Below, piece after piece: positions 2,649-58,417 of a DNA stretch of 58,417 nt. The first letter of the stretch is position 1. Every line of letters begins with the position of its first letter. A program made the position numbers and the translations under genes. The notes beneath the pieces are model-generated. The model had not been told where the DNA came from, did no database searches, and was given only the letters and a program-made list of their open reading frames with translations. Source of the DNA: a virus; IMG/VR virus record IMGVR_UViG_3300042430_003191, positions 1 to 58,417 of that record. One strand, 5' to 3'.

Positions 2649-3623
2649 CTATTGCTCCTTAATTAAATCTCCCTCTTGTTCTGACTCCGTGTCACCGTGT
2701 GTAAAATCACCAAATTTTTGTATTACCGGTGTTTCTAAATCATCTAATATTTCTCTTTTACTACTTGGGGAAATAAATCTTCTTAATCTATCTAAAATCT
2801 CAACAAGTCCATGTTTTGCAATTCTTGTGGCCACACCCATAGAAAGTGAGAAAAAGTTTGATATAACATCATCAACTGACATCTCGTGCATTCCAATTAC
2901 AGCTAGTATAGCATTCATCACTGGAATAAGAATTGCGGTGTAAGCAAACATATCAATAATACCACCAACGGCTGCTCCTAAATGTTTACCTATCGTAGAA
3001 AAGATGTTTTTAATACCATTGAGAGCTTTAATTACTTTTTTTACTATTCCATCACCAATACCCTGCATTCTCAATTCTTCTAACATGGATTTAGAATCTT
3101 TAGTTAAAATATCTTCTTCTTCAGGTGTTTTAAATTTCTTTTCTTCTAAATAAGTAATTGTGATAGCGGCTATTGTGAGAAGAACCACACTTTGTTTACT
3201 TACATCAACACTAATCGACATATTTTGCATCATCTCTAAAACCACTGGATAAAGTGCTCCGATTCCTGCTCCAAATGTTAAAACCAATTTTGAATCAAGC
3301 TTTAAGTCAGAGATGACTTTCTTTTCAATAGATTTATAAGTAGATTCTTTTTGGTCTTCAAAATCATCTGAATTTTCTTCATCATCTTTAGGTATATAAT
3401 CATCTAAAATATCAAAAATTTCAGTTCCGTCAAATCCTTCACTTCTCAATTTGTGATAAAACTCAGCAAATTGTGTTTTTGTAGGAGTAACATCTTTAAA
3501 TTCCTCTTTAAATCTTTTTAAAATTTCATTAACACCACCACCACTTGACTCGTTAAGTGATGATAAGAAATCATCTATAATTGATTCCTGTTTATAAAAG
3601 TCTCCAAATCTTTTAATTTTCAT
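2649..3623 (-). CDS. Head-targeted (tagged) membrane-type protein, unknown function
   Basis: 324 residues. The N-terminus MKIKRFGDFYKQES carries the shared putative capsid-targeting tag, and SSLNE|S at 21-26 offers an L-x-E cleavage site of the T4 gp21 type. Three hydrophobic segments lie at about 112-130, 144-159 and 216-245, separated by acidic linkers. A late-type element TTTTTAATATATAG sits 4 bases before the ATG. I do not recognise the fold. By tag and promoter it should be packaged in the virion; the hydrophobic segments suggest membrane contact after ejection, which is inference. Confidence 0.8.
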   Translation of the reverse strand: MKIKRFGDFYKQESIIDDFLSSLNESSGGGVNEILKRFKEEFKDVTPTKTQFAEFYHKLRSEGFDGTEIFDILDDYIPKDDEENSDDFEDQKESTYKSIEKKVISDLKLDSKLVLTFGAGIGALYPVVLEMMQNMSISVDVSKQSVVLLTIAAITITYLEEKKFKTPEEEDILTKDSKSMLEELRMQGIGDGIVKKVIKALNGIKNIFSTIGKHLGAAVGGIIDMFAYTAILIPVMNAILAVIGMHEMSVDDVISNFFSLSMGVATRIAKHGLVEILDRLRRFISPSSKREILDDLETPVIQKFGDFTHGDTESEQEGDLIKEQ

Positions 3624-3627
3624 AAGT

Positions 3628-3641
3628 CTATATATTAAAAA
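3628..3641 (-). promoter_or_regulatory. Late-type promoter element, near-leaderless
   Basis: TTTTTAATATATAG on the minus strand, with only ACTT between it and the ATG at 3623. This is one of the clearest copies of the window-wide element. Confidence 0.55.
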
Positions 3642-3647
3642 TTGAAA

Positions 3648-4664
3648 TCAATCTTCTTTAGTTTCCCAATCGTCATAATCATAAACATCATAGGTTCCAT
3701 CGGTATTCATTAGTCTCCAATAATTACCCTTAGGTTCATAATTATAAGCCATATCTTTGTATACATAACTAAAAGTGTCCATATAAGGATACTCTTCATC
3801 TGGAAAATCAAAAGCATTTAATATTTTAACACCAGTTAGTATAATTTCTTCTTTACCTGATTTTATAAATTTAGTAAGTCCACTATTTGACTTTTTGTAA
3901 TAAAAATCATTTTCATTAGCCCATCTAATAAATTTATAATAATCCTTATCATAAACAAAGTAAACTCTATCCATAATATTTCTACCGTCTTTATCTTTCC
4001 AAAGAAGAGCTCTTCCTAAAATTGCACTTTCTTTATCTAAAAGAACTAATAACTTTACATCAGGACAATATTTATAAAACTGAACACAAGTCATATCATT
4101 CATACAAGAATTCATTAGTGGGTTCATGCCATTATCATAATCATTGAAATGATACAATCTAGAAGAATACCCTTTTACAATATCACTACCTGACCATACT
4201 TCAAAAGTTGAAGTTTCATCAAGTGACTTCCATTGATTAACAAATTTTTCTATCTCAACATCGGAAAATTTAGAACCAAAAAAAGCTCTAATAAATCTTC
4301 CAACATTCATTTCAGTTCTTGCAAATTGTAATAAATTATTATCATATGATGGAAAAGGTAATTTTTTTACAAAATTGATAATTTCATCATTATCCTCAAT
4401 TTGATAGTTTACTGAAATATATGTCTTTACTTTACTAGAGTCGGTATAGACTATTTTATCATTTGAATCAGAAACAGAAATAAAAGTCCATTTGCTCAAA
4501 GGCTTGTATTGACTATGACCATAAGCGGTCATTCTCTCAAATTCAATAGAAATAGGTGAATCAATCTTTTGAACTTTATTTGTGAATTCTTTACTAAAAA
4601 GCGTTGGTAATAACGCTTCTTCTTTTGCTTCCAAAATAAATTCAAAATATCTGAATAATCTCAT
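3648..4664 (-). CDS. Head-targeted (tagged) protein, unknown function
   Basis: 338 residues. It begins MRLFRYFEFILEAKEE: the tag followed directly by I-L-E|A at 10-13, an excellent gp21-type cleavage site. The body is soluble and aromatic-rich, with a central MNSCMNDMTC segment followed by VKLLVLLDKESAILGRALLW. I have the impression that this SCM...GRALLW pattern recurs in uncharacterised phage proteins, but I know no function for it. Late-type element TTTTTATATATAG lies 5 bases before the ATG. It diverges from the tagged gene at 4732. Confidence 0.8.
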   Translation of the reverse strand: MRLFRYFEFILEAKEEALLPTLFSKEFTNKVQKIDSPISIEFERMTAYGHSQYKPLSKWTFISVSDSNDKIVYTDSSKVKTYISVNYQIEDNDEIINFVKKLPFPSYDNNLLQFARTEMNVGRFIRAFFGSKFSDVEIEKFVNQWKSLDETSTFEVWSGSDIVKGYSSRLYHFNDYDNGMNPLMNSCMNDMTCVQFYKYCPDVKLLVLLDKESAILGRALLWKDKDGRNIMDRVYFVYDKDYYKFIRWANENDFYYKKSNSGLTKFIKSGKEEIILTGVKILNAFDFPDEEYPYMDTFSYVYKDMAYNYEPKGNYWRLMNTDGTYDVYDYDDWETKED

Positions 4665-4680
4665 AAACTATATATAAAAA
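4665..4680 (-). promoter_or_regulatory. Late-type promoter element, near-leaderless
   Basis: Minus-strand TTTTTATATATAGTTT immediately before the ATG at 4664, nearly identical to the element at 18402. Confidence 0.5.
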
Positions 4681-4696
4681 GTTGAAAAATGAAAAT

Positions 4697-4715
4697 CAAA
4701 ATATAATATATACTT
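4697..4715 (+). promoter_or_regulatory. Late-type promoter element
   Basis: Plus-strand AAAATATAATATATACTT ahead of the tagged gene at 4732. It forms a divergent promoter pair with 4665-4680. Confidence 0.4.
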
Positions 4716-4731
4716 AAAAATAAACCCTTAT

Positions 4732-5259
4732 ATGAAACACCTTAGAAAATTTGAAGAATATGATTTAGGTCATAGATTTTCAACACCAGAAGAAGAAGAA
4801 ATCACACCATTAGAACTAAATGAACCTACTGGAGACGAAACTGGAGATATTTACTCAGAAGAAGAAAGAGATGAGGAAGGTGATGAATATTGTGCACCTT
4901 GTGAAGATGAAGATGAAGATCCTTCAGAAGAACCTACAAAAACTTGGGGTGATGAGAATATCTATGTAGAAAGAGTTGTTTCATTCAAACAGTTTGAAGC
5001 TAAAAAGAACGCAAAAGGTAAAACTCCTAAAAATGAAAAAGAAAAAGAACTTGCAGCTAAATATCCACCAAAAGATAAAATTACAAAAGGTGACTTTATC
5101 GCTGCGGCAATAGAAAATAAAAAGGGTAAAAAAGAAGAAGATAAAAAAGGTGAAGATAAAAAAGAGGAAGAAAAAGGCGGTAAAGGTTTAACTGCCGCAC
5201 AAAAGAAACTTCCAGAGGGTCTTAGAAAAGCAATTGAAGCAAAGAATAAAAAGAAATAA
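4732..5259 (+). CDS. Head-targeted (tagged), highly charged protein
   Basis: 175 residues. MKHLRKFEEYDLG is the tag in near-consensus form, though no clear L-x-E site follows within 25 residues (ELNEP near residue 34 is the nearest). Residues 15-75 are strongly acidic with CAPCEDED; the C-terminal half is Lys-rich with KKGEDKKEEEKGGKG and ends in LPEGLRKAIEAKNKKK. The basic tail could bind packaged DNA, as internal head proteins do, but this is inference. A bidirectional terminator follows. Confidence 0.8.
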   Translation: MKHLRKFEEYDLGHRFSTPEEEEITPLELNEPTGDETGDIYSEEERDEEGDEYCAPCEDEDEDPSEEPTKTWGDENIYVERVVSFKQFEAKKNAKGKTPKNEKEKELAAKYPPKDKITKGDFIAAAIENKKGKKEEDKKGEDKKEEEKGGKGLTAAQKKLPEGLRKAIEAKNKKK

Positions 5260-7076: not shown

Positions 7077-7262
7077 ATGCAAGTTATTCCTCAATACGAT
7101 GAGTTCGGAATCTACACAACAGTAGACGATGTTAAAATCTTTATCACATCACTATTTGAACAAGGACTTTCATCAGAGGAAGATATTTTTTCTAACTGTG
7201 TTTTAGAGTTTGGGAAATCTAATTTTGATCTGATAGAGAGAGTTATTTATGGTGAAGATTGA
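7077..7262 (+). CDS. Small hypothetical protein
   Basis: 61 residues, acidic, with no motif known to me. Its end overlaps the start of the HAD gene by 14 bases, and the pair shares a late-type element upstream, so the two are likely translated together. Confidence 0.65.
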   Translation: MQVIPQYDEFGIYTTVDDVKIFITSLFEQGLSSEEDIFSNCVLEFGKSNFDLIERVIYGED

Positions 7263-7902
7263 TAAATTTAATGAGTTTGATATAGAGAACAACACTCTAT
7301 ACGTTTTTGACTTTGATGACACTCTTATGGTGACACCAAGATATGAAGATATTGCCTTAAAGTTTCTAAATGAAAACTTAACTGTTAAAGATTTATTAGA
7401 TAGAGCTGTTAAAAGAATTGGAATAACAAAAGATAAACTAAAAGTTCAAGATAGAAGAATATTTGTAGATGATCCTAATAAAATTTATAAAGAAGAAAAA
7501 GATTGGGTTAGAAAAGGCAATCGTCTTTATTTAGTACAACCAGATGAATTTGGTTACTTAGATGAAAGCTTACCAAATAAGTTGAAAGAACTGGCAAATC
7601 TTTACAAATCAGTTGAAGATAAATGTATAGTAACAGCTAGACCACAAAGCATGAGAAATAAAATAGAATCAGTTTTGAAACAATTTGGATTAGAAAATCC
7701 AAAATGGGGTCTACATATGTGTCCGGATGGTAAAATAAACGCCGGAAAATGGAAAGGCGATAAGATTGTAGAATTGGTAGAAACCACCGGATTTCAAAAT
7801 GTTATCTTTTATGATGATAACTCTAAATATATCAGAGGCGCAAAAAAGGTAGTCTCTGAGAAACTACCTAATTTAAATTTTAAAACCGTGAAGGTAATTT
7901 AG
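7249..7902 (+). CDS. HAD-superfamily phosphatase
   Basis: 217 residues. HAD motif I is FDFDDTL near residue 20, with the nucleophile Asp and the acid/base Asp. Motif II is the Thr in IVTARP, and the motif III/IV region is VIFYDDNSKY. There is no kinase domain, so it is not a full T4 PseT-type end-healing enzyme, although a nucleotide or polynucleotide phosphatase role is plausible. The start MVKIDKFNEFDIEN resembles the head-targeting tag, but motif I follows almost at once and no clear L-x-E site is present. The 3' end overlaps the convergent protease gene by 23 bases. Confidence 0.85.
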   Translation: MVKIDKFNEFDIENNTLYVFDFDDTLMVTPRYEDIALKFLNENLTVKDLLDRAVKRIGITKDKLKVQDRRIFVDDPNKIYKEEKDWVRKGNRLYLVQPDEFGYLDESLPNKLKELANLYKSVEDKCIVTARPQSMRNKIESVLKQFGLENPKWGLHMCPDGKINAGKWKGDKIVELVETTGFQNVIFYDDNSKYIRGAKKVVSEKLPNLNFKTVKVI

Positions 7903-8541: not shown

Positions 8542-9183
8542 TTAATTTTGAACCCAAACTTTTGTATCAGCTGGCCAATCTAATAAGTCTCCGGCTGTTT
8601 TACCAGTTCCTGACCAATCACCTTGGAATATTTGTCCTAATGTATCACCATTTCCGTGTGGATCGGAACCAATTGCTTTTAGAGTAGAAATAATTTCATC
8701 TTTATCAGAACCTGAAACTCCTTTTGTTAGATTTTCAATACCTTGATTATAATCTCCACCACCAAAGTCTTTTACTGATTTTATAAATTCTTCAGGACTT
8801 GATTTTGGATTTAACTCACTTCCAGTATACTTGTTAAGTGTTTGTGTAATACCTTCCTCTGATGGCATAAACTTACCATCGGATGGTGGTGGTGGCGGTG
8901 GTTCGATATTAGCAGCTTTATAAATCATAGCAGCTCCAGCTATTGTTAGAGCCAATCCTAAACCAAATTGACTATTTTTTTCTTTTATTATAATACTTCT
9001 TAAGTATTTAGCCGCTTCAGTTGGATCTTGTTTGTATAAATCAACCAATTTCTGTTGTTGGTCCTGAGGTAGTTTTTCAATTTCCTCACCAGCTGATTGA
9101 CCAGTAACGGTTCTTCTCATTTTTGCTGCTAACTCTTTTAAACCTTCGTTAGTAAATTCATCAAATTTTTCAATTTTACTCAT
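8542..9183 (-). CDS. Head-targeted (tagged) protein with one membrane segment
   Basis: 213 residues. MSKIEKFDEFTNEGLKE holds the tag and a possible T-N-E|G cleavage at 11-14. One hydrophobic segment lies at 73-90, followed by a run of six prolines at 95-100 and a Gly/Ser-rich C-terminal region ending WPADTKVWVQN. I recognise no enzyme motif. The gene follows the 566-residue tagged protein with a 9-base gap, so the two are probably one operon driven from near 10911. Confidence 0.78.
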   Translation of the reverse strand: MSKIEKFDEFTNEGLKELAAKMRRTVTGQSAGEEIEKLPQDQQQKLVDLYKQDPTEAAKYLRSIIIKEKNSQFGLGLALTIAGAAMIYKAANIEPPPPPPSDGKFMPSEEGITQTLNKYTGSELNPKSSPEEFIKSVKDFGGGDYNQGIENLTKGVSGSDKDEIISTLKAIGSDPHGNGDTLGQIFQGDWSGTGKTAGDLLDWPADTKVWVQN

Positions 9184-9192: not shown

Positions 9193-10893
9193 TTATTTAT
9201 TATTGTAATTTTTAAAAGAAAAAACTTTACTTTCAGCGACAGATTCTGCTTTAAATGAAGTCATTATTTCTTTAAGTGTTGTATTAAAATCTCTCATATC
9301 AGCTCCAAATTCACCTAAAGACGCATACATATTCTCACCTTCAAATTGCATTGTTCTCTTTGAAAGTCTTGCCATTTTTTCAGCAACTACTTTTCTTTTA
9401 TTTTTATCAGAAATTACTTCTATACTTTCTTTGAAAAGTGGTCCTAAATCAGCCATAGTCTTAGAATATTTACCATAAAGATGTTCGTAAACCTCTTCAT
9501 ATAAAGCCTTAATAGACTTTTTAGCCTCAACATCCATCTTTTTATCTAAAATATTAGTAATAAAATCATCAGTAATACCAACTCCTTTATCTTTTTCATC
9601 TTTTAAAGCTTGTAAAGATTTAGTGATATTTTTGAAAGCTTGTGTAAGATGCTCTTCAGCTCCTGTGATTTGAACTTTTCTTGGTTGTTTTGAAAATTCT
9701 TTAGAAAATTCTTTTTCAAAAAGTAAAAAAGACTGGACAGACTCTCTTACTTTTTGTCTTTTAGCTCTTTCAACTTCCTCTTTATTTTTTCTTTTAACCA
9801 TATCTCCTTTTTGAGATGATTCCTCACCTTCAATTCCCACACCCTCAAAAGAAATAATCATACTTTTCAATGCTTGTAGATTTTTAATCATTGTAGGATA
9901 AAGAGATTTTAAAGGTTTGGCTTTTTCAATGTCTTTAGATGTTATATCTGAATCACCTGCCTCAGATGATCCTGTGTCAGTAATACCACCTCCTTCAATG
10001 TATGTAATATCAATATCTGTAATGAAAATATTAGTTACCCCGTTTTGATTTAAATTTCCACCAAAAGCCATATGCAAATAAGCTAAACAATCATCAACTG
10101 TTGGATAAGGTTTACAAACCCAAATTGCTAAGATAATTAAACCAGCCATTAACAACATACCACCGATAGCGGCCATTGCAACTGGACTTAAACCTAAAGT
10201 AAGACCCGCTAAACTAATACCAGCAACTTTAAGAATACCAATTATAATTAAACCTATTGTAGTTTTCTTCATTATCTGAGAAACAACTCCATTAAATCTA
10301 GCATTTTTGATACCTAAAGCATGTGCTATTTTTTCAAAAACTCCATAATATTTAACCTCATCATCACCAATTGATTTACTATCAGATTCATTTAACTTAA
10401 CTTGATTACCAACAGATTGTAATTTATCTGGAGTAACTCCAGCTTCTTGCCAATTAACAGCAGATTTTGCTTTTTGACACAATACAGTCCAAATTCTTTG
10501 AAAGTTAGGTCTATTATTCTCATCAGCCAAACCATTTGATACGATAAATTCTTTGAATCCACTCAACATATCTTTAATTTTGTTCCAAACTTTAGTTCCG
10601 ATTTCCTTAATCTTGTTAAAGATAGAACCAGCTAATTTCTTAAGTGAAAAGTTTTTGAAAAACTCAACGACACCTGTAAAGAATTTACTAATAGCATCTT
10701 TTACATTAGTATAAACATTAGAAATAGCTTGTTTTCCTTTTTGAATTAGATTATTAATGAATTCTTCAGTGATTAATGATTCTAATGGAGTAATTATATC
10801 ATCAGCTGTAATATTTTGCTCTGTAAGAAATTGACATTCCATCAATTTTGCTTCGTAGAGTTTAGAGTAATTTGTGAAGTTTTGAACTCTCAT
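9193..10893 (-). CDS. Large head-targeted (tagged) protein with membrane segments, paralogue of the 959-residue protein
   Basis: 566 residues. The tag MRVQNFTNYSKLYEAK has an ideal L-Y-E|A site at 12-15. Residues 50-120 are amphipathic Lys-rich helices, and long hydrophobic segments fill about 211-260. Residues ~328-550 match the 959-residue protein at 47104-49983; shared anchors include YPTMIKNL, EEHLTQAF/EDHLTQAY, DKGVGIT/DKGIGVT, DKNKRKVVAEK/DKNKKIIVAEK and QFEGENMYASLG/QFDGQNLYAGLG. A late-type element lies just upstream. Probably a virion-internal protein; the biochemical role is unknown. Confidence 0.82.
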   Translation of the reverse strand: MRVQNFTNYSKLYEAKLMECQFLTEQNITADDIITPLESLITEEFINNLIQKGKQAISNVYTNVKDAISKFFTGVVEFFKNFSLKKLAGSIFNKIKEIGTKVWNKIKDMLSGFKEFIVSNGLADENNRPNFQRIWTVLCQKAKSAVNWQEAGVTPDKLQSVGNQVKLNESDSKSIGDDEVKYYGVFEKIAHALGIKNARFNGVVSQIMKKTTIGLIIIGILKVAGISLAGLTLGLSPVAMAAIGGMLLMAGLIILAIWVCKPYPTVDDCLAYLHMAFGGNLNQNGVTNIFITDIDITYIEGGGITDTGSSEAGDSDITSKDIEKAKPLKSLYPTMIKNLQALKSMIISFEGVGIEGEESSQKGDMVKRKNKEEVERAKRQKVRESVQSFLLFEKEFSKEFSKQPRKVQITGAEEHLTQAFKNITKSLQALKDEKDKGVGITDDFITNILDKKMDVEAKKSIKALYEEVYEHLYGKYSKTMADLGPLFKESIEVISDKNKRKVVAEKMARLSKRTMQFEGENMYASLGEFGADMRDFNTTLKEIMTSFKAESVAESKVFSFKNYNNK

Positions 10894-12902: not shown

Positions 12903-13553
12903 TTATTTACCAGTTGCTAAACCATATCCAACTCTTCCAATACCAATTGTCGCGGCTGTTGCAACAGCTGCTGACCAACAAGCAACGAATATGCTTACTC
13001 CGCTACCCACAGCAGCTGCAGTTGCTACTGCCCCTGCAGCAATTTTAATTAGTGCTCCAAGTGCTACAAGAATAGTAACTATGGCAATTATTATTCCTAT
13101 ATATTTAGCAGCTAATCCGAAAGCTTTCAAAATCCTTTGTCCCAATGATTGAGCATTTTCATTTATTGCAATAAGTCTAGATTCGTATAATGGTGTTCCA
13201 TATTTTGTTCTAGAAATATTTACAGAATCTTGAATCAATTCTTTTAATTCTTCTTCAGTTCCTTCTGGAGCATTAGCAGCAGCTACGTCTGGATTGAAAT
13301 TTTCCATTTTTAGTTTCAATTCCTCAATATCTTCTTTTGGTAAGCTCGCGAGTTGTTCTTCTACTTTAGCAAATTTAGCTTTATTAGCAGGATCTTCCAT
13401 AATTCTTTTTGTAGCCTCAGCCATTTCTACAGCTTTTTTATTTTTCCACCCAGAATACCACTTACCAATTTTTGAAAAGATGTTTCCTTCTCCCCATAAC
13501 CATCCTTCATTAACAGAAGGATTAAAATTTTCGAATGTTTTTACGTATTTCAT
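12903..13553 (-). CDS. Head-targeted (tagged) protein with C-terminal membrane region
   Basis: 216 residues. MKYVKTFENFNPSVNEGW has a consensus tag and a V-N-E|G site at 14-17. A charged helical middle (40-110) leads to hydrophobic segments at about 150-170 and 172-208, rich in Ala, Gly and Val. Upstream is a late-type element with TTTTTAATATAAATATATAC. It resembles the other tagged hydrophobic proteins in design rather than in sequence. Function unknown. Confidence 0.78.
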   Translation of the reverse strand: MKYVKTFENFNPSVNEGWLWGEGNIFSKIGKWYSGWKNKKAVEMAEATKRIMEDPANKAKFAKVEEQLASLPKEDIEELKLKMENFNPDVAAANAPEGTEEELKELIQDSVNISRTKYGTPLYESRLIAINENAQSLGQRILKAFGLAAKYIGIIIAIVTILVALGALIKIAAGAVATAAAVGSGVSIFVACWSAAVATAATIGIGRVGYGLATGK

Positions 13554-17520: not shown

Positions 17521-17877
17521 ATGAAACACTTAAAGACGTTTGAAAGTTTTCAACAAATTAATGAGGAAGAATTTATCGGAGCGGTAAAAGATATGATATC
17601 AGGTAAATCTGCTTATAAAACGACTATTGCTTACTTAGACAGCAAATCGAAAGAAGCTGAGGAAGCTATTAAGCTTTGGAATGAAATTAAAGACTCAGGT
17701 AAACCAGCAAAGCAACAATTAGACAAAGTAGACAGAATAAACAGACTTGGTAGAATGTGGGCCGAAGCAAATAAGATGGAAGGTAATGACTATGATTACA
17801 ATCACGTAGATACAGTTATGAAAGGTGAATGGGGTAGAAAATACCACGGTGGAACAAATGTGACTGTAGGAGAATAA
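17521..17877 (+). CDS. Head-targeted (tagged) protein, unknown
   Basis: 118 residues. MKHLKTFESFQQINEEEF has a perfect tag and an I-N-E site at 13-15. The mature part would be about 100 residues, helical, ending WGRKYHGGTNVTVGE. No function is recognisable. It has its own late-type element and terminator. Confidence 0.8.
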   Translation: MKHLKTFESFQQINEEEFIGAVKDMISGKSAYKTTIAYLDSKSKEAEEAIKLWNEIKDSGKPAKQQLDKVDRINRLGRMWAEANKMEGNDYDYNHVDTVMKGEWGRKYHGGTNVTVGE

Positions 17878-38071: not shown

Positions 38072-38464
38072 ATGAAACATTTAAAAACATATCAAATATT
38101 TGAATCGGCTAACAAAAAATTCATCACTGACTTTCTGATTGATTTTGGCATGTTAATAACGATGGGCTTTTCACAAATAACTAAAAGAGGAGTTAATCAA
38201 AAATCAACTAATGAATTAACTGATATGATGAAAAGACTTAGAGAACCTCTTATAAATGGGAAAACCTATACTCAAATAATTGATGATATTAGTTTATTAT
38301 ACAATAATCCTAAGTTGTTATCAGCACTGATGGGACAAATAAGAGAACTTTTATTATATATTGAACCAAGAGTCAAAAACTATGTAGAAGAATGTGATGT
38401 TAAAGATAATTGGTTGGGTAAAATTGATAAATTCAAAGAAAGATATAAACAGATAGTAAGTTAA
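38072..38464 (+). CDS. Head-targeted (tagged) protein, unknown
   Basis: 130 residues. MKHLKTYQIFESANKK has a consensus tag and an I-F-E|S site at 9-12. The rest is helical and basic. Its stop overlaps the next ATG (TAATG). Function unknown. Confidence 0.78.
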   Translation: MKHLKTYQIFESANKKFITDFLIDFGMLITMGFSQITKRGVNQKSTNELTDMMKRLREPLINGKTYTQIIDDISLLYNNPKLLSALMGQIRELLLYIEPRVKNYVEECDVKDNWLGKIDKFKERYKQIVS

Positions 38465-45500: not shown

Positions 45501-46544
45501 AGTTACGTTACCCGGTAAGTCAAGTGGAGTTGAAACAATCTGAACATCTTCAGTGATTGTTTCTTTATATGATAAGAAATTAATTTCATTTTCACCACCA
45601 TCAGCAATTGTATTACCCAATAAGTCTAATACACCATTGTAGTAATCAGTTTCAACTACATCATTGTTAAATGCACAGAACACACCTGTTCTATCAGTAT
45701 CTCTGTTAATAGTAGTTTCGATAAAGATATTTCTACCATTAAGATCTCTAAAATATGGAATCAATGACAATCCTTCGTAGTATGCTAATGTTGTAATATT
45801 TCTATCATCCGCGAAGTTTCTAACTTGAGCTTTTCTAAGACCAGATGCACTAAAGTAATTACTCCATCTTGGATCAACTGCCAACTCTTGATAATTAGAC
45901 CAATCACCTGCGATAATAACAACATCAACAAGATAATCAGAAGCATAATCTAAAGCGTTTACATATGACGGCAATTTCTCAATAGAACCATACCATTCAA
46001 GTAACGTTCTATCAAAACCAGTTAAAGTAGATTTAAAGATGAAAACAGAAACATATCTATCCGAAAGGTTAGTAATATTAAATGCTCTCTCAGAGTAACC
46101 TGATGTATTTTTAGTAAGGTTAATAAAAGAATCAGTGTCTCTTTTCCAGAAACCTGTTGTATCAAAGAATCTTCTATAAGGACCCTCTCTTTCAATATCA
46201 TTACTTGAAGCTGCAGAAGATGATAAAGATTGATACTCAATAACATCTAATGTATCATCAGTTACTAAAAGGTTCATAGCGAAAACTGGAGCAGTTTCCA
46301 CCATTTTAGAAACTGTTCTATGAAAGAATGAACCCTTTCTTTCTAATCCTCTATCTAATTGTCCGAAAATAGACTCCAACTCAGAAGTTGTAGTTATTCT
46401 AATCGGCGTATTAACAGGCCCTTTTCTTGAAACACCAATAACAAGGTTTGTAATACCTTCAACTACTGGGCTTGTGATTACAGACTTGTCAAATTCTTCT
46501 AAGAAGATTCCTGGTCTCTTGTATTTTCCAATTTGAATTGCCAT
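42534..46544 (-). CDS. 18: Tail sheath protein, T4 gp18-like, double length
   Basis: 1336 residues, twice T4 gp18 (659). The N-terminal strand MAIQIGKYKRPGIFLEEFDKS and the next TNLVIGVSRKGPVNTPIRI are typical of sheath proteins. The C-terminal domain is also typical: LNQAQINPLVFKRNRGFII, TLVKSALSYIHVREVLIELE and the final VEPIKGMGIIVNNVTI. The middle contains extra beta-rich, Ser/Thr/Ala-rich segments (for example the region near residues 410-540) and is probably surface-exposed on the tail. The sheath contracts around the gp19 tube during injection. Confidence 0.9.
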   Translation of the reverse strand: MAIQIGKYKRPGIFLEEFDKSVITSPVVEGITNLVIGVSRKGPVNTPIRITTTSELESIFGQLDRGLERKGSFFHRTVSKMVETAPVFAMNLLVTDDTLDVIEYQSLSSSAASSNDIEREGPYRRFFDTTGFWKRDTDSFINLTKNTSGYSERAFNITNLSDRYVSVFIFKSTLTGFDRTLLEWYGSIEKLPSYVNALDYASDYLVDVVIIAGDWSNYQELAVDPRWSNYFSASGLRKAQVRNFADDRNITTLAYYEGLSLIPYFRDLNGRNIFIETTINRDTDRTGVFCAFNNDVVETDYYNGVLDLLGNTIADGGENEINFLSYKETITEDVQIVSTPLDLPGNVTAMLGDLGPSYGSYSYVSQPAHAYGFDLNPANEFAETLLTTGLVENPERTAWFGEGSVYNVDLVSSTPAIVTATTSISVTYGAGPGAFGVIGDTLIPIAATATLVMNAGDYPFSTTLATYSSAFILDTTGEIQVVSSLSVGVNPAVGATDIVLGYIDLGVASQSFVSPSSFSVEDVTVGTSEYIDYDFGTYSTSDYYISEVTAGSGVIKIEFPGTNDTPSVTNYKQWRKFKMFNRLVNLIDGPNKNRMSLVLNPVTYEKYSFENITISNIVQSSLLNKSFNLTTGLTTAQLSDILNGYLVIYTEDNEFILGSEGVQTKSDMADINNNSDSIGVVGKYSTFYTKNYDGQINTKDYFFSNRLFLDASGASASNLTLLNTTVDVLFVDGEEATNGGNTQSWAGYDYIIFRSDVANWDTEINLATFEQVYFPDSTLNKGSFTIASNEVTAFNGKTPQQIAGLLGYGNGSGASQYYAYTVAEEVVYESLTDVSRMYDYLVRHYLRMYVDNDGTLYVEFKDSDLATDVDVAALANNTFYIKSEKSNFKQTVEIEIPSGYVQVPNKVLINGERYSEVKVGDFLEAYYDATTLQTGQYPRKLTRILSKRQYSGDASLTEVTCDSRIATRFSGGQLQTQRYSTVDQYATTYKVLSLKGFRIRNASLPDGTEARQNSVLNLVAKGTPLFKSLTNKEAIDFRYLVDSFGLGLTEKSKQQLVDICGDRLDAFGFINMPSARMFKNSSSPTFVNTEGVLQMEYVSKGGDPESNPAFLYSFADGAGTTCVGYFFPYVNINDNGRPLDHPPAPFVATTYMAKHISNVGNVTPWTIAAGVTNGRITGINSIEQDFTPEDIEYLNQAQINPLVFKRNRGFIIETENTAQTLVKSALSYIHVREVLIELERELSRMLLDFQWKFNTSDIRSDIKLRADVICETYVSKNGLYNYFNKMDEENNTPEIIDNQIGVLDTYVEPIKGMGIIVNNVTILRTGAIAAGGFING

Positions 46545-46609: not shown

Positions 46610-47107
46610 TTACTTTTTACTTTGAATTTCTTGAGTATCTTTTTTCAACTCTTTTGTGGCTTCATCAATAAGTTTTTTATGATCCACCATTAATTTTTGT
46701 AACTCTTTAGACTTTTCTGCTAAAATTTTATCGAAGTTTGAAATTTTATCAGTAAGTTCTTTCAAATCCTTTTCACCAGTAAGAGTTGATTTGTTAGCCT
46801 GTGCCAAAACTCTATCACTATTAGCAGTTTCTATCTCATTTTGAATTCTACAAATTCTCAACCAATCGACTAAAAACTGATTTTTATTCTCTTTCTCAGG
46901 AAGCACTGTTTTTAACTTTTGTTCTATTTCTAAATTATTCTTTGTAGAATTGTATAGTTGGTCAATTTGAGTCTTCTTTGCATTATATTCCTTTAAGTCA
47001 GCTTCAATGTCATTAGCACTTTGTTTTGCCAATTTCTCATCTGGTCTATCGGTTGTTGATATAGCTAAAGCTTCTTTAAAAAAATCATATTTTCTTAGAT
47101 ATCTCAT
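46610..47107 (-). CDS. Head-targeted (tagged) coiled-coil protein
   Basis: 165 residues. MRYLRKYDFFKEALAIS has the tag and an F-K-E|A site at 10-13. The rest is a long charged coiled coil (KLAKQSANDIEADLKEYN to the Lys-rich end). It overlaps the 959-residue gene by 4 bases, so the two are translated together. A core/scaffold-like role would fit; unproven. Confidence 0.78.
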   Translation of the reverse strand: MRYLRKYDFFKEALAISTTDRPDEKLAKQSANDIEADLKEYNAKKTQIDQLYNSTKNNLEIEQKLKTVLPEKENKNQFLVDWLRICRIQNEIETANSDRVLAQANKSTLTGEKDLKELTDKISNFDKILAEKSKELQKLMVDHKKLIDEATKELKKDTQEIQSKK

Positions 47108-49983
47108 TTTGAAATCACCTCTGGGGTAAATTTACCCTCGTTATATTTTTTATCAACAACCTCTCTGTAATTAATGAATGCTGGTTTTATAGATTTTAAA
47201 GAATTAGCAACATTATCCTTAGATTCTAACTTTAATATGTTTAGACCTTTAACTTTATTATCTTCCATTTTTTTAAGAGATAACCAGTTAACATTTGTAA
47301 TTGTTATGTTTTCTGTAATTGTTTTAGGTTTATCCTGTTCTTTTACCAAACCTTTCACTTCAATTGATTTAGATCTATTATTTGCAATACTTTCCAAAGC
47401 TTTCTTAGTCATAACTGTGTGAATAATAGGATATGGACCACTACCTAATCTATCTCTCATTTCAGGAGCAACATCAGAATCACCTTTACCTATTTCAGTA
47501 GATGGATACTCACTTTGTATAAGGTTTCTAAACCAAGCCATTGTTTTAGACATCATAACATAATATTTATCATTTGCCATTTCATTAACAAAAAGATACC
47601 AACGAACAATTTTTCCTTCGGAATCCTTACCATTTACTTGAAGAGTGGTAAATCTAAACTTACTTTCTTTTAAAACTTCATCAGATGTAACAGAACTTGA
47701 TTTTGTAAATTGTAAGTTAGAAACAGTTATAGCATCAGCAGTTTCATTATTGATTTCTATATCATTTTTCCCTGTTTTCTTATCAACCATACCCAACTGA
47801 ACGTCTGAGTTTTTATCAAAGAAATCTGTTCCGGTCTCACCGAAGTACTTTTCGATAGCCTTCTTTTGAGCACCAGCGGAATCACCACCTCCACTTGATT
47901 TATAAAGATTATCACCATCTAATAGATCAGTCATTAGTTGTCTTAAAGCAACACCTGCTCCTTCTCTAACATTTCCAGCACCATCATCTAAAACAGTTTC
48001 TTTTGCAAAAATAGGAGAGAATCTTGTATCAGCAAATATATCCATTACAGCATCTTCCCAAATATTGAATGTCTTTTTATGTCTATATGGACCGTGTTCA
48101 GTAGCCGATGGTGCACCAGAAGAACTACCAAATGTAGTATATTCATTATAAGTTAATCTATCAACAGCACCGTCAGTTCTAGCTCCTGGAATAACATCTG
48201 TTGTATGTAGTTTATAAGCTCTGTTGAAAAGTCTAACAATCTCAATTATTGGATTCATTCCGTTAATGACGATAGATTTACCTTGTTTTTTAGAAGCATC
48301 TTCTACTTTCTCTTCAACTACTTTTACTTCTTCTTCAGAAAGTAAGAAAGCATCAAAGTCTAAGTTTTCATCAAAGTATTCTTTAATCTCTTTTGAAATT
48401 TCAGCGGACTTGTCTTCTTTATTCTCATCCTGAGCTTCATCTCCTTCCGCTTCTCTAATTAAAGTTAAATAAGAATTATATTTTAATAATTTAGATTCTT
48501 GTTTTTTCACAACTTCTTTTAACTCTTCCGGATCAATTTTTTTCAATTCTTTCATTGAATCAACAAACTGTTGAAGTGGTTTACCTAAATCACCCAATCC
48601 AGCATAAAGATTTTGACCATCAAATTGAATAGCTCTCATTGTAAATCTAGCTATTTTCTCAGCTACAATGATTTTTTTATTCTTATCTTTGATAGTATCC
48701 ACAGATTCAACAAACAAACTGTCAGCCGGCGCATTTAAAGTAGCTTTTTTATCACCAATTAAATATCTCAGTATCTCTTTATATAAGGATTTTATAGCAA
48801 CTTTACTTTCTTCGTCAACTGATTTATCAGTAATAGCTTTTAAGAAGTCGAATGTAACACCGATGCCTTTATCTTTAGGATTTTCCAATACCTCACATGC
48901 TTTCTTTAATTTAGTATAAGCTTGCGTTAAATGATCTTCTTTTCCAGTTCCGACATTTCTATCTTTACCACCACCAGCACCGATACCTGATTTATCACCA
49001 ACCATAGTAGTTTGAATTGGACCTTCCTCAAATATGAAACTTTCTTTAACTAAAGACAATTTGATTTTTATATCTTTACCTAATTGTAATTTGTTTTTGT
49101 CCATTTTGGATTTATCAGCCTTTATAGTATAAGGTTCTAAAGTTTTTGCATTTGCAGACCAAATTTGCTCAATTGCCAATTTATTCTTATTAATTTTGAC
49201 ATCTTTTTGAATTCCCTCAATAGTTTCACCACCTTTTGTAATGTGAAAATAATCTTCAGGTGATGACACAATAGCCTTAGGTTTAAATTTCTTATAATTA
49301 GCCAAAACCAAAGAAAGAGCTTTCAAGTTCTTAATCATTGTAGGGTATCCTGTTTTGATTGATATTTTATCACCTGGTTTTCCTTCTTCACTTTCTTTTT
49401 CATCATCATCTTCAGTTTTATCAGCATCTTCAGATAAAGGACCACCTTTACCATCAGAATCTTTATACTTTTCTAAGAACTTTAAAAATTCCTCTAAAGC
49501 AGCGATTATTACTTTTTTTGACTCTTCTGATTTCTCACTAACTTCTAAATCTTCTAAATTATCAATAGTGCTTTGTGTGATGTCTTTAAGTTTACCAACT
49601 TTTTCTCCATCATCTACAGCTTTTTTAAGAACTCCTAAAATAGAAGATATTTGAACTTTTGAAATATCTTCTTGATCTTCTTTAGAAAGTGTTCTAATAG
49701 CTGATTCACTCACTAATCTTTCAAATTGAGATTTCATTTGCTTAGAGACCAAAGATATTCTACCCATATCAACACCTACACCAATCTTACGAATAACAAA
49801 GTTTATGAATCTACCTAAAAGTGAGTCTCCCCATTTTACGTTGTTACCAAAAGCTCCAGAACCAGGAGCATTTTCTTCTAAAATTAATTTAGTTGTTAGA
49901 TCTTCCAACATTTTATCTTGTTGAATTCTTTTTCTTTCATTAATATTTTTAAGGTAATTATCTCTTGAGTGTAAATGTCTCAT
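47104..49983 (-). CDS. Very large head-targeted (tagged) protein, paralogue of the 566-residue protein
   Basis: 959 residues. MRHLHSRDNYLKNINERK is a variant tag with an I-N-E site at 14-16. Residues ~210-485 match residues ~328-550 of the 9193-10893 protein. At 501-512 KYNSYLTLIREA looks like a second internal tag with I-R-E|A, suggesting that processing could split the protein in two. The C-terminal half (about 540-959) is a mixed domain of unknown fold with TVLDDGAGNVREG and FRFTTLQVNGKDSEG. A late-type element lies upstream. Confidence 0.8.
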   Translation of the reverse strand: MRHLHSRDNYLKNINERKRIQQDKMLEDLTTKLILEENAPGSGAFGNNVKWGDSLLGRFINFVIRKIGVGVDMGRISLVSKQMKSQFERLVSESAIRTLSKEDQEDISKVQISSILGVLKKAVDDGEKVGKLKDITQSTIDNLEDLEVSEKSEESKKVIIAALEEFLKFLEKYKDSDGKGGPLSEDADKTEDDDEKESEEGKPGDKISIKTGYPTMIKNLKALSLVLANYKKFKPKAIVSSPEDYFHITKGGETIEGIQKDVKINKNKLAIEQIWSANAKTLEPYTIKADKSKMDKNKLQLGKDIKIKLSLVKESFIFEEGPIQTTMVGDKSGIGAGGGKDRNVGTGKEDHLTQAYTKLKKACEVLENPKDKGIGVTFDFLKAITDKSVDEESKVAIKSLYKEILRYLIGDKKATLNAPADSLFVESVDTIKDKNKKIIVAEKIARFTMRAIQFDGQNLYAGLGDLGKPLQQFVDSMKELKKIDPEELKEVVKKQESKLLKYNSYLTLIREAEGDEAQDENKEDKSAEISKEIKEYFDENLDFDAFLLSEEEVKVVEEKVEDASKKQGKSIVINGMNPIIEIVRLFNRAYKLHTTDVIPGARTDGAVDRLTYNEYTTFGSSSGAPSATEHGPYRHKKTFNIWEDAVMDIFADTRFSPIFAKETVLDDGAGNVREGAGVALRQLMTDLLDGDNLYKSSGGGDSAGAQKKAIEKYFGETGTDFFDKNSDVQLGMVDKKTGKNDIEINNETADAITVSNLQFTKSSSVTSDEVLKESKFRFTTLQVNGKDSEGKIVRWYLFVNEMANDKYYVMMSKTMAWFRNLIQSEYPSTEIGKGDSDVAPEMRDRLGSGPYPIIHTVMTKKALESIANNRSKSIEVKGLVKEQDKPKTITENITITNVNWLSLKKMEDNKVKGLNILKLESKDNVANSLKSIKPAFINYREVVDKKYNEGKFTPEVISK

Positions 49984-53288: not shown

Positions 53289-53300
53289 AGACGTGGTTTT

Positions 53301-53320
53301 TTACAATATATATAAAAAAA
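53301..53320. promoter_or_regulatory. Divergent late-type promoter region
   Basis: TTACAATATATATAAAAAAA reads as a TATATA-type element on both strands, serving the minus gene at 53288 and the terminase at 53335. Confidence 0.45.
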
Positions 53321-53334
53321 TATTCTCTGTCCTT

Positions 53335-55470
53335 ATGGCAGCCAACGAGCAACAAGAAAAACAAATGGTTTTTACCACTAAATTAGTGGATGAATCAACA
53401 GATAAAATAAACGATGGTATTGTAATAAAACGATATCAAAATCCTTGGCTTAAAAGTGAAGTAGGATTAAGAAGATCAGGTGTAACATTTAGGATGACAC
53501 CAGATGAACAACAAGAATATGTTAGATGTGCCTTAGATGTTCATTATTTCGTTGAAAAATACTGTAAAGTAAAAAGAGAGGATGGTTCTATTGGTAATAT
53601 TCTACTCAGAGACTATCAAAAACAAATACTAGATAACTTTGTAAATAGTAGATTTAATATACTTATGGCATCTCGACAGGTTGGTAAAACAATATCATCA
53701 GCTATTTTCATGTTACATAAAATTCTATTTGATAACGATAAAAATATAATGATTGTAGCAAACAAAGGAGACACGGCTGTTGAAATCGTGGATAAGATAA
53801 AATCAATCTATACACTTCTTCCTTTCTTTTTAAAACCAGGCATTAAGACTTGGAATCAAAAATCATTAACATTTGAAAATGGTTGTAGAATAAAAACATC
53901 AGCTAGAACAAAGACTCCAGCTATTGGTTTTACCATTGATGTTCTTTACTTAGATGAGTTTGCACATATTCCATCAAATATTATTGAACCTTACTATACA
54001 GCTGCTTTTCCAACGACAGCGGCTGTTCAAAACTCTAAGATTATTATCACTTCCACACCAAATGGAATGAATCTATTTCATAGACTTCTAACAGATGCAG
54101 AAAGACCAGAGGGAGATCCACAGAAGAATAACTATAAAGCAATGAGGGTATATTGGTATCAAGTTCCTGGTCGATTTGTAACTTATTTGAGATTAAATCC
54201 TCACAAATTATATGATCATGGTGTCACAAAAGAAGATGTATTTGAACTATGTAAAGAGAAATGGGGTGAAAAAACAAAAATAGAAATGGGTTGGAACTCA
54301 GATTTACAAAAGGATATTATCTATGTTTACAACAACGAAAATTGTTCAGATGAAGAAGTTAAATCTTTATCAATAGAAGACAATAGAGGATTTGAGGTTC
54401 CAGTAAGAGCACTATCTGAGGCAACTACCTGGAAAGAAGAAGCAATTAAAGATATAGGTGGAGAAGACGCATTTAATCAAGAATATGGTCTTAGATTTAT
54501 CAATGCTTCAAAATCACTACTAAATGAGGCAATTATTGATGAGTTGTTAAGAAATAAGAAAAATTATGTGTTTGAAGAAATTACAGAATTTGATAAAAGA
54601 ATTAAATTTAGTTACTCAGATTTAAAATTCGTAGATGATGATGATTTGTTTCTACCTTTAAAAAGAAAAGATTATAAAGTTATAATATCAGTCGATATCT
54701 CAGAAGGATTAGGTCAAGATTACTCAGTTATAAATATATTTAGAATTAACAATAAAACAAAAGAAGTAATAGACATGCAGAAAAATAACTATAAATCACT
54801 AGTTGATTTCTTTAAATTAGAACAAATAGGAATATTTAGAAGTAATATAATATCAATAAAACAGCTATCAGAACTTTTATATTTAATTTGTTTTGAATAT
54901 TTCAATCCTGAAAATGTAAAAGTAGTATTAGAGTTAAACAATTACGGAAATACTCTTTTAGCAGAAATGCCACACGTTTTTGATGGTAAAAATGATTACG
55001 GGTCATCTATTTTCGTTAGATATAAACACAGAATTGACGCCACGGAAGAAAAAGTTGGACTAAAAGTCGGAGAAAATAAAAATCTAATGGTGAAAGACTA
55101 TCAAGATTTGATGTATTCAAAAGGATTTGGAATAAACAACGAGGATACTATTAGAGAAATTACTACTTTTGTAAAGCACACAACCACAGCAGGAAATACT
55201 AAATATGCCGCAGATGTAGGACACGATGACTGCGTAATGACAATTGTAAACACGACTTCTATATTTCAAAAAACCGATTTTAAAGAAATGGTTGATGAGT
55301 GGTCTAATAAACACACCGATAAAGAAATGATGCAATTCATAAATCAATGCATGAACAACATTGATTTTGTCGAAGGCGTTGACTATGGTTCATTTTTAAG
55401 AGCAAAAAATCTCGCTAAAACAAAATCCGGTAAATCAAATATGGGAGGTAGTTGGTTTGGAATTGGTTAG
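53335..55470 (+). CDS. 17: Terminase large subunit, T4 gp17-like
   Basis: 711 residues from MAANEQQEKQ; the frame opens 14 codons earlier, but that stretch lies in the promoter. The ATPase has an adenine-binding LRDYQKQIL at 91-99, Walker A SRQVGKT at 113-119, Walker B VLYLDEF at 203-209 and coupling motif TSTPNG. The nuclease half has VDISEGLGQDYSV (first Asp) and a late DVGHDDCV. It pumps DNA into the prohead and cuts it at the end of packaging. The stop overlaps the convergent clpS stop by 4 bases. Confidence 0.95.
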   Translation: MAANEQQEKQMVFTTKLVDESTDKINDGIVIKRYQNPWLKSEVGLRRSGVTFRMTPDEQQEYVRCALDVHYFVEKYCKVKREDGSIGNILLRDYQKQILDNFVNSRFNILMASRQVGKTISSAIFMLHKILFDNDKNIMIVANKGDTAVEIVDKIKSIYTLLPFFLKPGIKTWNQKSLTFENGCRIKTSARTKTPAIGFTIDVLYLDEFAHIPSNIIEPYYTAAFPTTAAVQNSKIIITSTPNGMNLFHRLLTDAERPEGDPQKNNYKAMRVYWYQVPGRFVTYLRLNPHKLYDHGVTKEDVFELCKEKWGEKTKIEMGWNSDLQKDIIYVYNNENCSDEEVKSLSIEDNRGFEVPVRALSEATTWKEEAIKDIGGEDAFNQEYGLRFINASKSLLNEAIIDELLRNKKNYVFEEITEFDKRIKFSYSDLKFVDDDDLFLPLKRKDYKVIISVDISEGLGQDYSVINIFRINNKTKEVIDMQKNNYKSLVDFFKLEQIGIFRSNIISIKQLSELLYLICFEYFNPENVKVVLELNNYGNTLLAEMPHVFDGKNDYGSSIFVRYKHRIDATEEKVGLKVGENKNLMVKDYQDLMYSKGFGINNEDTIREITTFVKHTTTAGNTKYAADVGHDDCVMTIVNTTSIFQKTDFKEMVDEWSNKHTDKEMMQFINQCMNNIDFVEGVDYGSFLRAKNLAKTKSGKSNMGGSWFGIG

Positions 55471-57331: not shown

Positions 57332-57356
57332 TTATATTGAAAAAAAGACATTTTTT

Positions 57357-57376
57357 TAATATAATATATACATTAT
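57357..57376 (+). promoter_or_regulatory. Late-type promoter element
   Basis: AATATAATATATACATTATA, about 20 bases before the ATG at 57396. It is like the element before 13553. Confidence 0.4.
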
Positions 57377-57395
57377 AAAAAATCAGAATTTGAAA

Positions 57396-58040
57396 ATGAA
57401 ACACATTAGAACATTTGAAAGTTATCGTATTAGAAAAAATAGAGAAGAAATTATTAAAGAATCTGTTCTCCAAATTAACGATATCTATAAAGTTAAGACT
57501 ATGATTGATATTCCACAATCATTAATCAATGCTTATGTGAAAAAAGTTAAAGATACAACAGGTAAAAACCTTCGTCAATTTTTTGGTGATGTTGACATCG
57601 CTGAAGAGATCATTAAATACATAAACATGAACAATCTTGATATTGATAAACTTCCAGGTAACGCACTTATGGGTGGAGCTCAAGGACAAGGTCAAGCACA
57701 AGGACAACCACAAGTTCAGGTAGAAGGTGAGGCTGAAGCTCAACCCGAAGCTCAACCACAAGGACAAGCTCAACCCGAAGCTCAACCACAAGGACAAGCT
57801 CAACCTGAAGCTCAACCTGAAGCTCAACCTGAAGCTCAACCACAAGGACAAGCTCAACCACAAGGACAAGCTCAACCACAAGGACAAGCTCAACCTGAAG
57901 CTCAACCACAAGGACAAGCTCAACCACAAGGACAAGCTCAACCTGAAGCTCAACCAGCACAAGGAGAATTTGAAGAACCGCAGGCTCAAGGCGAAGCACT
58001 TCCGGAAGAAGAGGAAGAAGACGAAGAAGAAGAAGCATAA
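57396..58040 (+). CDS. Head-targeted (tagged) protein with a long Gln/Pro/Glu/Ala repeat
   Basis: 214 residues from MKHIRTFESYRIRKN, a perfect tag; an ATG two codons earlier is less likely. I-K-E|S at 20-23 is a possible cleavage site. Residues 25-85 are a small folded domain (INDIYKVKTMIDIPQSLIN, then DVDIAEEIIKYINMN). From residue 116 a 70-residue tract is built of seven QPEA and seven QPQGQA units, then an acidic tail rich in Glu. The repeat is probably an extended flexible arm. Function unknown. Confidence 0.8.
   Translation: MKHIRTFESYRIRKNREEIIKESVLQINDIYKVKTMIDIPQSLINAYVKKVKDTTGKNLRQFFGDVDIAEEIIKYINMNNLDIDKLPGNALMGGAQGQGQAQGQPQVQVEGEAEAQPEAQPQGQAQPEAQPQGQAQPEAQPEAQPEAQPQGQAQPQGQAQPQGQAQPEAQPQGQAQPQGQAQPEAQPAQGEFEEPQAQGEALPEEEEEDEEEEA
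57741..57950 (+). repeat. Coding tandem repeat, 12-base and 18-base units
   Basis: 210 bases made only of CAACC[C/T]GAAGCT (QPEA, 7 copies) and CAACCACAAGGACAAGCT (QPQGQA, 7 copies) in mixed order. Near-perfect repetition suggests recent expansion by slippage or recombination. Confidence 0.95.
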
Positions 58041-58061
58041 TTTTAAACTACTATAAACTTT

Positions 58062-58089
58062 AAACCCGTCAGAAATGATGGGTTTTTTT
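58062..58089 (+). terminator. Rho-independent terminator
   Basis: AAACCCGTCA/TGATGGGTTT stem (one G-T pair) with a GAAA tetraloop and T-run, after the repeat-protein gene. Confidence 0.8.
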
Positions 58090-58090
58090 A

Positions 58091-58105
58091 TTTAATATAT
58101 AATTT
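58091..58105 (+). promoter_or_regulatory. Late-type promoter element, near-leaderless
   Basis: TTTAATATATAATTT, immediately followed by the ATG at 58106. Confidence 0.55.
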
Positions 58106-58417
58106 ATGAAATTTCTTAAAACTTTTGAAAGTTATAATCAAGATACTTTGATAATAGTTGATGTTCAAAAATCATTTAAAAAATACTTTTCTGAAATGTA
58201 TCTAAACGAGTTGAAAAAATATTGTAACAACTTCAACAATGTTTACCAAATCTGGGACAATCATATCGACGGTAAAAATGTAGATAAGGATTATCTTTAT
58301 GATGAAAAACCTGATATTCCAGTTCACAAAGACATTTACTATTTTCCAAATCAAAAGGAATTAATAGAAAAACGATACAATTACGACGTTGACGCCGATT
58401 TCTACAAGAAAGTTCTT
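58106..58417 (+). CDS. Head-targeted (tagged) isochorismatase-like hydrolase, partial
   Basis: The first 104 residues are in the window and the gene runs off the right edge. MKFLKTFESYNQD is a full tag, and DTLIIVDVQKSF at 13-24 is the first strand and catalytic Asp region of isochorismatase/nicotinamidase-like cysteine hydrolases. VYQIWDNHIDGKN follows at the position of the second strand. The catalytic Cys would lie beyond the edge. No L-x-E cleavage site separates tag and enzyme, so the tag may remain attached. The combination suggests an enzyme packaged in the head. Confidence 0.8.
   Translation, partial: MKFLKTFESYNQDTLIIVDVQKSFKKYFSEMYLNELKKYCNNFNNVYQIWDNHIDGKNVDKDYLYDEKPDIPVHKDIYYFPNQKELIEKRYNYDVDADFYKKVL

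Follow-up and report, generated by a model that had tools for sequence, protein, structure and literature searches.

A putative capsid-targeting tag of the T4 internal-protein kind on a large, variable protein set of Mahaphage-clade huge phages

Why should many proteins of one virus, with bodies that are mostly unrelated, begin in nearly the same way? The question is raised by DNA from an uncultured phage, a fragment of 58,417 bases with 29% guanine plus cytosine (IMG/VR record IMGVR_UViG_3300042430_003191), the whole of which is called the window here. A preliminary description of the window had noted a shared N-terminal tag on about 13 proteins and likened it to the capsid-targeting sequence of bacteriophage T4, which was described with the internal proteins IPI, IPII, and IPIII by Mullaney and Black in 1996 (as cited in PMC5694885 and PMC9391042). 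The shared N-terminus is very probably a capsid-targeting sequence like that of the T4 internal proteins, which Mahaphage-clade huge phages of Bacteroidota employ on a great many proteins. This interpretation is supported by prohead protease candidates in relatives, by a glutamate shared with the end of the major capsid protein (MCP) propeptide, by retention of that site over variable spacers, by forms intermediate to those of T4, and by the clustering of tagged genes in phage PAU.

Under the proposed mechanism, tagged proteins would be made late in infection. The tag, with its basic start followed by F/Y-x-x-F/Y, would bind the prohead core so that tagged proteins become enclosed, and an S77 (gp21-type) protease would then cut after hydrophobic-x-Glu at the tag end, the same kind of site as that of the MCP propeptide. 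Once freed, the proteins would remain in the head, and they would probably be delivered to the host together with the DNA. We infer cleavage, packaging, and injection, as well as any counter-defense role, which is suggested because T4 internal proteins are likewise diverse and two of them, IPI and probably IPIII, act against host defenses (PMC3012670, PMC9391042).

Relatives of the window phage were found with the terminase large subunit gene as an anchor (53293..55470, + strand; matched by Pfam PF03237 and a PHROG terminase). The terminase shares 78% identity with its counterpart in LR745206.1 (W01; 634,780 bp), 73% with that in LR756502.1 (W02; 642,428 bp), and 42-43% with those in LR756504.1 and LR756501.1 (W04; 735,411 bp). 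W01 and W02 appear to be ~640-kb Mahaphage relatives of the window phage; the predicted hosts of the Mahaphage clade are Bacteroidetes (PMC7162821). The analysis also covered a 436-kb IMG/VR contig with an 89% identical terminase (G001), a 262-kb contig holding a near-identical virus (G007), LR756500.1 (W08; 462 kb, covered to 460 kb), the phage PAU (JQ362498.1; W05), which is in culture on host strain HER1398 (PMC3738902), and PTm1 (W06).

Genes were called as simple non-overlapping open reading frames (ORFs) of at least 60 codons with starts picked by rule. N-termini were scored over residues 2-11 with a position matrix trained on W01 and tested elsewhere (W02 provided the training set for testing W01), and proteins above 6 bits were counted as tagged. 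A matrix from another genome tags 8 of the 65 genes in the window against 0.04-0.08 in residue shuffles, none of ~310 internal Met positions scores as a tag, and [FY]xx[FY] is seen at position 7 in 12 cases where 0.7 are expected. When only the chosen start is considered, the tagged genes number 27 of 291 in G007, 57 of 519 in G001, 111 of 909 in W01, and 137 of 940 in W02; shuffle means for the matrix counts in these four and the window are 0.08-0.63, and internal Met residues in the tested genomes rarely score (0-4 of about 1,900-3,200). With alternative ATGs allowed, the counts are 124 in W01, 146 in W02, and 62 in G001, and all shuffle means stay under 0.8. The tagged set is thus about ten times bigger than the list visible in the window, and approximately one gene in seven is tagged in the ~640-kb genomes. 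Within one 30-kb stretch of W02, 36 of 58 genes are tagged and ten of them form an unbroken run, whereas shuffles never gave a run of more than six.

A collection of 340 tagged proteins can be sorted into form a (MKHLKKYNE/S, where the slash marks the predicted cut; 82 proteins), form b (MKHLKTYKIFE/S; 82 proteins), and form c (MKYLKTFENF...INE/E and the like; 138 proteins), with 38 unclassed. For forms a and b (164 of 340) the position of the Glu is part of the class definition while the residue that follows is not, and that residue is Ser in 35 of 82 form a and 47 of 82 form b proteins. Among the form c and unclassed tags, hydrophobic-Asn-Glu before one of S, A, N, G, E, or D occurs in 27 of 176, compared with 2.1 when shuffled.

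The most telling observation concerns the MCP. A gp23-type MCP is encoded in all 12 relatives examined, and its putative cleavage site is placed by comparison with the end of the gp23 propeptide, as T4 gp23 reads ...GSFLTE/AEIGG after a 65-residue propeptide (alignment; PMC5694885). The Mahaphage MCP reads ...EYAEFHSINE/NAYANASNVSGMGAV, so that its propeptide would end in SINE/NAY or QINE/NAY; the corresponding ends are MNE/N in W04 and LYE/N in W08. Three small tagged proteins carry the mature N-arm of the MCP joined exactly after the Glu of the tag. They are encoded at 80294 in W02 (MKHLKNYKSFNE/DATANASTAGMGGVSPAQPG, also given as MKHLKNYKSFNE/DATANASTAGMG), at 93266 in W01 (MRYLKPYKKFIE/NADGSSTSGMGAVSSAQPG, also given as MRYLKPYKKFIE/NADGSSTSGMG), and at 368891 in G001 (MRYIKSYKKFQE/NAVATASSTAGAGPVV, also given as MRYIKSYKKFQE/NAVATASSTAGAG). 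In these proteins the tag appears to stand in for the MCP propeptide at the Glu. Two untagged proteins with another prefix have the same N-arm after MILE/ or LILE/ (W02 542908 and W01 554784).

For the gp21-like protease, whose gene the preliminary description proposed to look for outside the window, S77 candidates occur in 14 of the 14 relatives first searched; the window stops short of this gene. Four are above the Pfam cut-off and the others score 20-25 bits, under the 27-bit cut-off; the candidates lie near the MCP and terminase genes. An alignment of four sequences shows conservation of GELNHP or GEFDHP and of VSSRG or VSSRA, whose HP and SSR motifs align with T4 gp21 and are taken to be the catalytic His and Ser regions. 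The W01 prohead protease (198546-200669) has a long extension with many NIxYSEYLAENLDK repeats that is absent from T4 gp21.

The predicted site is also retained where the sequence before it is not. In the family of ORF 47104-49983, most members share the start MKYLxxRDxxL and the core GPFANDIxWGDSL but differ in the sequence that separates them, and 25-54 residues precede the core. Hydrophobic-x-Glu lies within 12 residues of the core in 30 of 30 distinct N-termini, which are related rows and not 30 independent events, compared with a mean of 12.3 and a maximum of 19 when spacers are shuffled. An AlphaFold2 model of ORF 47104, of low confidence (predicted local distance difference test score, pLDDT, 61; predicted template modeling score 0.31), places the tag and spacer in one helix (residues 2-37) whose end is at the predicted Glu; Foldseek gave no informative match with this model. 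Similarly, ...EEIIKE/SVLQVND in the 57396 family becomes ...FKQAINE/SVLQVGD after a longer spacer in the ortholog L021.

More distant relatives connect the Mahaphage tag to that of T4. Tags in W04 include MIKTFDEFINE/S, MIKKYIQFINE/A, and similar forms, and those in W08 include MKYIKEYEEFILE/A, MKYILEYEEFLLE/A, and the form MKYIKEYEEFILEA. T4 ipII and ipIII start with MKTYQEFIAE/A, and ipI reads MKTFKEFTSTTTPVSTITE/A with a long spacer ahead of ITE/A. The pattern M.{1,5}[FY]..[FY][ILVMFN]xE is found 51 times in W04 (1.5 expected) and 22 times in W08 (1.2 expected), and in T4 it matches exactly ipII and ipIII among 122 ORFs (two stretches, 72 kb total). The near-T4 forms of W04 and W08 are intermediates that link the Mahaphage tag to the T4 tags. 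In PAU the tag is MKTLxxLYE/[SA], often followed by KLNE/[SA], and is present in 20 genes where 0.005 are expected. Fifteen of these are among the 38 genes of a 100-121.5 kb block that contains the protease and MCP genes (hypergeometric 4e-11, with block limits that were chosen after the list was viewed).

As in the T4 internal proteins, the N-terminal 10-20 residues present F/Y-x-x-F/Y and then x-x-Glu before A or S, the bodies are polymorphic and unrelated, and a gp21-family protease and a gp23-type capsid are encoded. Unlike T4, which has three such proteins, these phages have 130-150 per genome; the Mahaphage tag reads MKHLKxY/F and comes in three sub-forms, and the residue after the predicted cut (P1') is Ser, Asn, or Glu more often than Ala. 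The T4 protein Alt, an injected ADP-ribosyltransferase, is one enzyme whereas a broad enzyme range is tagged here. Alt is enclosed in the head and loses an N-terminal propeptide to gp21 (PMC5694885). The jumbo phages SPN3US and phiKZ have head ejection proteins with propeptides removed by the prohead protease (PMC5694885, PMC10052503). They share with the present phages many internal head proteins, cleavage at x-x-Glu, and presumed ejection, all of which are predicted here from sequence. However, several of their propeptides are longer than 100 residues and most head proteins of SPN3US undergo no cleavage, whereas the tag described here is ~8-52 residues long and common to many proteins. Long head propeptides of the phiKZ and SPN3US type (mostly >100 residues) were ruled out on this ground. 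Among the abstracts listed from the open-access literature, none describes this tag in huge phages; papers from that literature treat capsid-targeting sequences for T4-type and SPN3US-type phages. The Mahaphage tag appears to be a greatly expanded version of the T4 system, and what would be new is how widely it is used, the sub-forms it takes, and a hypervariable cargo that includes enzymes.

That the tagged bodies are unrelated, as the preliminary description had it, holds for most: after removal of the first 16 residues the 340 proteins fall into 234 body clusters (in W02, 146 into 119), but one paralogous group (DILxDLxDxGF type) accounts for 35 of the 340. Pfam and PHROG searches gave almost no matches for the tagged proteins of the window, and 120 tagged representatives matched just 21 Pfam families, which include HNH, T4 RNA ligase 1, Nudix, methyltransferase, and a class III cyclase domain. 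Tagged bodies have a homolog in the sister genome in 29 of 110 cases (W01) and 30 of 132 (W02), compared with 368 of 634 and 375 of 638 untagged genes (p = 9e-10 and 2e-14). The cargo bodies are hypervariable and turn over fast (~25% with homologs versus 58%). The chances are about even that Mahaphage virions hold 130-150 different cargo proteins with cleavable tags, a fast-turning arsenal of enzymes and unknowns delivered with the DNA. If so, Mahaphage cargo would be about as broad as the effectors of a bacterial secretion system. With the tag as a head address on about one-seventh of genes, these viruses may deliver >100 kinds of protein with their DNA. A label readable from sequence would place hundreds of uncharacterized proteins inside the head from the first moment of infection, would predict injected counter-defense and takeover proteins straight from the genomes of the largest known phages, and would give one explanation for the abundance of small unknown genes in such phages. 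It is also a possible delivery label for packaging chosen proteins into phage heads.

The tag might instead mark components of the prohead core or scaffold. These would be enclosed and cut during assembly, but most would then be degraded or expelled and little would reach the next cell. In T4, gp21 chops up the core proteins gp22, gp67, and gp68 (PMC5694885), the tagged genes of PAU adjoin those for the protease and MCP, and members of the conserved 959-residue ORF 47104 family could belong to the core. This is nonetheless unlikely, as >100 tagged body clusters per ~640-kb genome, the low share of sister homologs, and intact enzyme domains are unlike scaffold.

Several observations weigh against the capsid-targeting interpretation. 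The broader hydrophobic-x-Glu occurs in just 70 of the 176 form c and unclassed tags, compared with 35 when shuffled; by these counts many of the tags have a clear site and a substantial number do not. Many form c tags are without an unambiguous nearby L/I-x-E, so cleavage at such a site may not extend to all tags. Both the protease and the MCP are known from relatives, their genes being located beyond the window. A search for the protease in G007, a 262-kb contig expected by synteny to end ahead of that gene, gave no match. PTm1 has an S77 protease yet no such tag by the patterns used. Tagged RNA ligase, HNH nucleases, and a lysozyme-domain protein have plausible non-virion roles too, the upstream motif (below) fits late expression on promoter evidence that is just moderate, and the open-access papers searched contained no virion proteomics of these uncultured phages. 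The form c tags with no obvious site would also suit an uncleaved localization or interaction signal unrelated to the head, directed to a replication compartment, a membrane, or a host partner, as would some bodies, such as that of W02 580926, that resemble membrane proteins or lipoproteins beyond the tag. Such a signal is improbable given that several different proteins have the tag Glu at the point where the MCP propeptide ends, that the site is kept through variable spacers, and that the forms grade into the known capsid-targeting sequences of T4. At W02 580926-581384 and 56658-57272, a hydrophobic, lipoprotein-like or membrane segment directly follows the tag (e.g. VNE/EINWKGVVAGAMSLLATACSN), so tag removal could expose a membrane signal.

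Spread of the tag solely by whole-gene duplication would make the similarity plain homology. The 35-protein paralogous group, with a common body and tag, fits this explanation, which was rejected as accounting for part of the set only. It is very improbable as a full account because the tag occurs across 234 body clusters and on unrelated folds (MurI, Nudix, SET, cyclase, and RNA ligase). Homology of the tagged enzymes, whose functional names rest on domain matches, to enzymes of solved structure starts beyond the tag, at residue 14 in glutamate racemase (G001), 13-15 in dephospho-CoA kinase (W04), 22-23 in Nudix (W01), ~29 in SET (W02), and 54 in nucleotide cyclase (W01). The sequences show modular addition of the tag to whole domains and selection at the protein level.

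Most structural genes of W01 are preceded by a TTAATATATA-like motif (14 of 15 have TATATA within 60 nt, as do some other genes), and promoter-like ATATATA is found upstream of 53% of tagged and 24% of untagged W01 genes, an enrichment of about two-fold. In tagged genes of W01, W02, and G001 the end of the TTAATATATA motif is often no more than 12 nt from the ATG, an arrangement that would result in leaderless or near-leaderless transcripts. In the window, a fixed promoter-plus-start DNA pattern is not above chance. That the similarity is a nucleotide-level effect of such A-rich start regions, with no role for the peptide, is scarcely credible and was rejected even though the motif is this close to many tagged genes, since tag codons match genome usage (Lys AAA 0.74 versus 0.71), which indicates that conservation acts on the protein, and since the Glu site is conserved at varying distances and some untagged genes carry the same motif.

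Within the window, the 15 starts named in the preliminary description are all ATG codons with the N-termini described, although only six (4732, 13553, 17521, 47107, 57396, and 58106) match its strict pattern M-[KR]-x-[ILV]-[KR]-x-[FY]-[ED]-x-[FY]. Of the others, 38072 is a clear form, 4664 and 36669 are T4-like, and 9183, 10893, 49983, 3623, 7249, and 37047 are looser; orthologs of several looser ones show a better tag or a cleavage-like site. Among the strict forms, ORF 4732-5259 has the tag core MKHLRKFEEY (4732..4761, +; 22.9 bits) with an ambiguous cleavage Glu and a W01 ortholog that reads MKYLKKFENFDLGRFNE/E. ORF 12903-13553 begins MKYVKTFENFNPSVNE/G (13506..13553, -; 19.7 bits), and its G001 ortholog keeps NE/G after another spacer (MKYVKTFESFNYNTTNE/G). 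ORF 17521-17877 begins MKHLKTFESFQQINE/E (17521..17565, +; 19.8 bits; G001 MKYLKTFESFSPINE/E). ORF 46610-47107 begins MRYLRKYDFFKE/A (47072..47107, -; 12.9 bits), and its orthologs (MKYLKKYKLFTEEV, MKYLKGYSSFNED, and MNRLRSYIQFKEA) keep the tag and Glu at 24-65% identity. Nineteen distinct orthologs conserve the tag MKHIRTFESYRIRKNREEIIKE/S of ORF 57396-58040 (57396..57461, +). In its C-terminal half this protein consists of a long AQPQGQAQPEAQ repeat and then an acidic tail, and ortholog lengths are ~124-222 residues. ORF 58106-58417 (open end), which we ourselves read as isochorismatase-like, begins MKFLKTFE/S (58106..58129, +; 17.4 bits), abutting the first strand TLIIVDVQ, and the tag is kept in nearly all of 35 distinct orthologs. 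The W01 isochorismatase-like protein had no sequence match in the PDB.

The form b tag MKHLKTYQIFE/S opens ORF 38072-38464 (38072..38104, +; 21.9 bits; G001 MKHLKSYELFE/S). The two T4-like tags, both matches to the T4-form pattern, are MRLFRYFEFILE/A of ORF 3648-4664 (4629..4664, -) and MGKINNYDDFLNE/E of ORF 36669-37031 (36669..36707, +; W02 MSRIRKYKEFITE/S, W01 MRKIDTYIEFINE/E). ORF 3648-4664 belongs to a paralogous family with many copies per relative, many with T4-like tags; F-I-L-E is invariant in four homologs while positions 2-8 mostly vary. Most of the 50 PDB matches listed for its AlphaFold2 model (pLDDT 65) are GNAT acetyltransferases, with expectation values ~0.01 and low template modeling scores, so the resemblance is a lead only.

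The looser tags include MKIKRFGDFYKQESIIDDFLSSLNE/S of ORF 2649-3623 (3549..3623, -; ortholog ends FLNE/S in G001, IITE/S in W02, and IINE/N in W01) and the weaker MVKIDKFNEFDIE/N of the HAD-like ORF 7249-7902 (7249..7287, +; 6.4 bits; W02 ortholog MMRIKKFESFKSDILYIFDFDET). The variant MSKIEKFDEFTNE/G of ORF 8542-9183 (9145..9183, -) is weak, at 1.0 bits, and is kept in G001. ORF 9193-10893 begins MRVQNFTNYSKLYE/A (10852..10893, -), with LYE/A and a body paralogous to that of ORF 47104-49983; the latter has the long putative propeptide MRHLHSRDNYLK...KLILEE/NAPGSGAFGNNVKWGDSL (49873..49983, -), whose Glu site is kept across the family. The degenerate MKVKKFNDKKKEE/G of ORF 37047-38057 (37047..37085, +) is scored as untagged, at -15.5 bits, and its W01 ortholog begins MKHIKRFNE/A.

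The tail sheath (42534..46544, -; phrog_34521, E 4e-92), tube, terminase, and MCP are without the tag. The neighboring genes at 135188-136722 in W01 we read as encoding NadR-like and PnuC-like nicotinamide salvage proteins. A 159-residue protein of the window (28203..28682, +) has an N-terminus like the MCP propeptide (KKW..IL..MGM..KLD...QILE/E; KKWSNILGSMGMTGSKLD...NQILE/E), with a local score of 72 against the W01 MCP N-terminus and a shuffled maximum of 48. Its later part aligns with the first segment of the MCP and it has orthologs in W01, W02, and G001; it is possibly a truncated capsid paralog. An 88-residue ORF of G007 (228519-228785, with the contig reversed to the window orientation) has the same KKWSNILGSMGM start and a different, sheath-like continuation, GVYIRDVDSSIYTPP.

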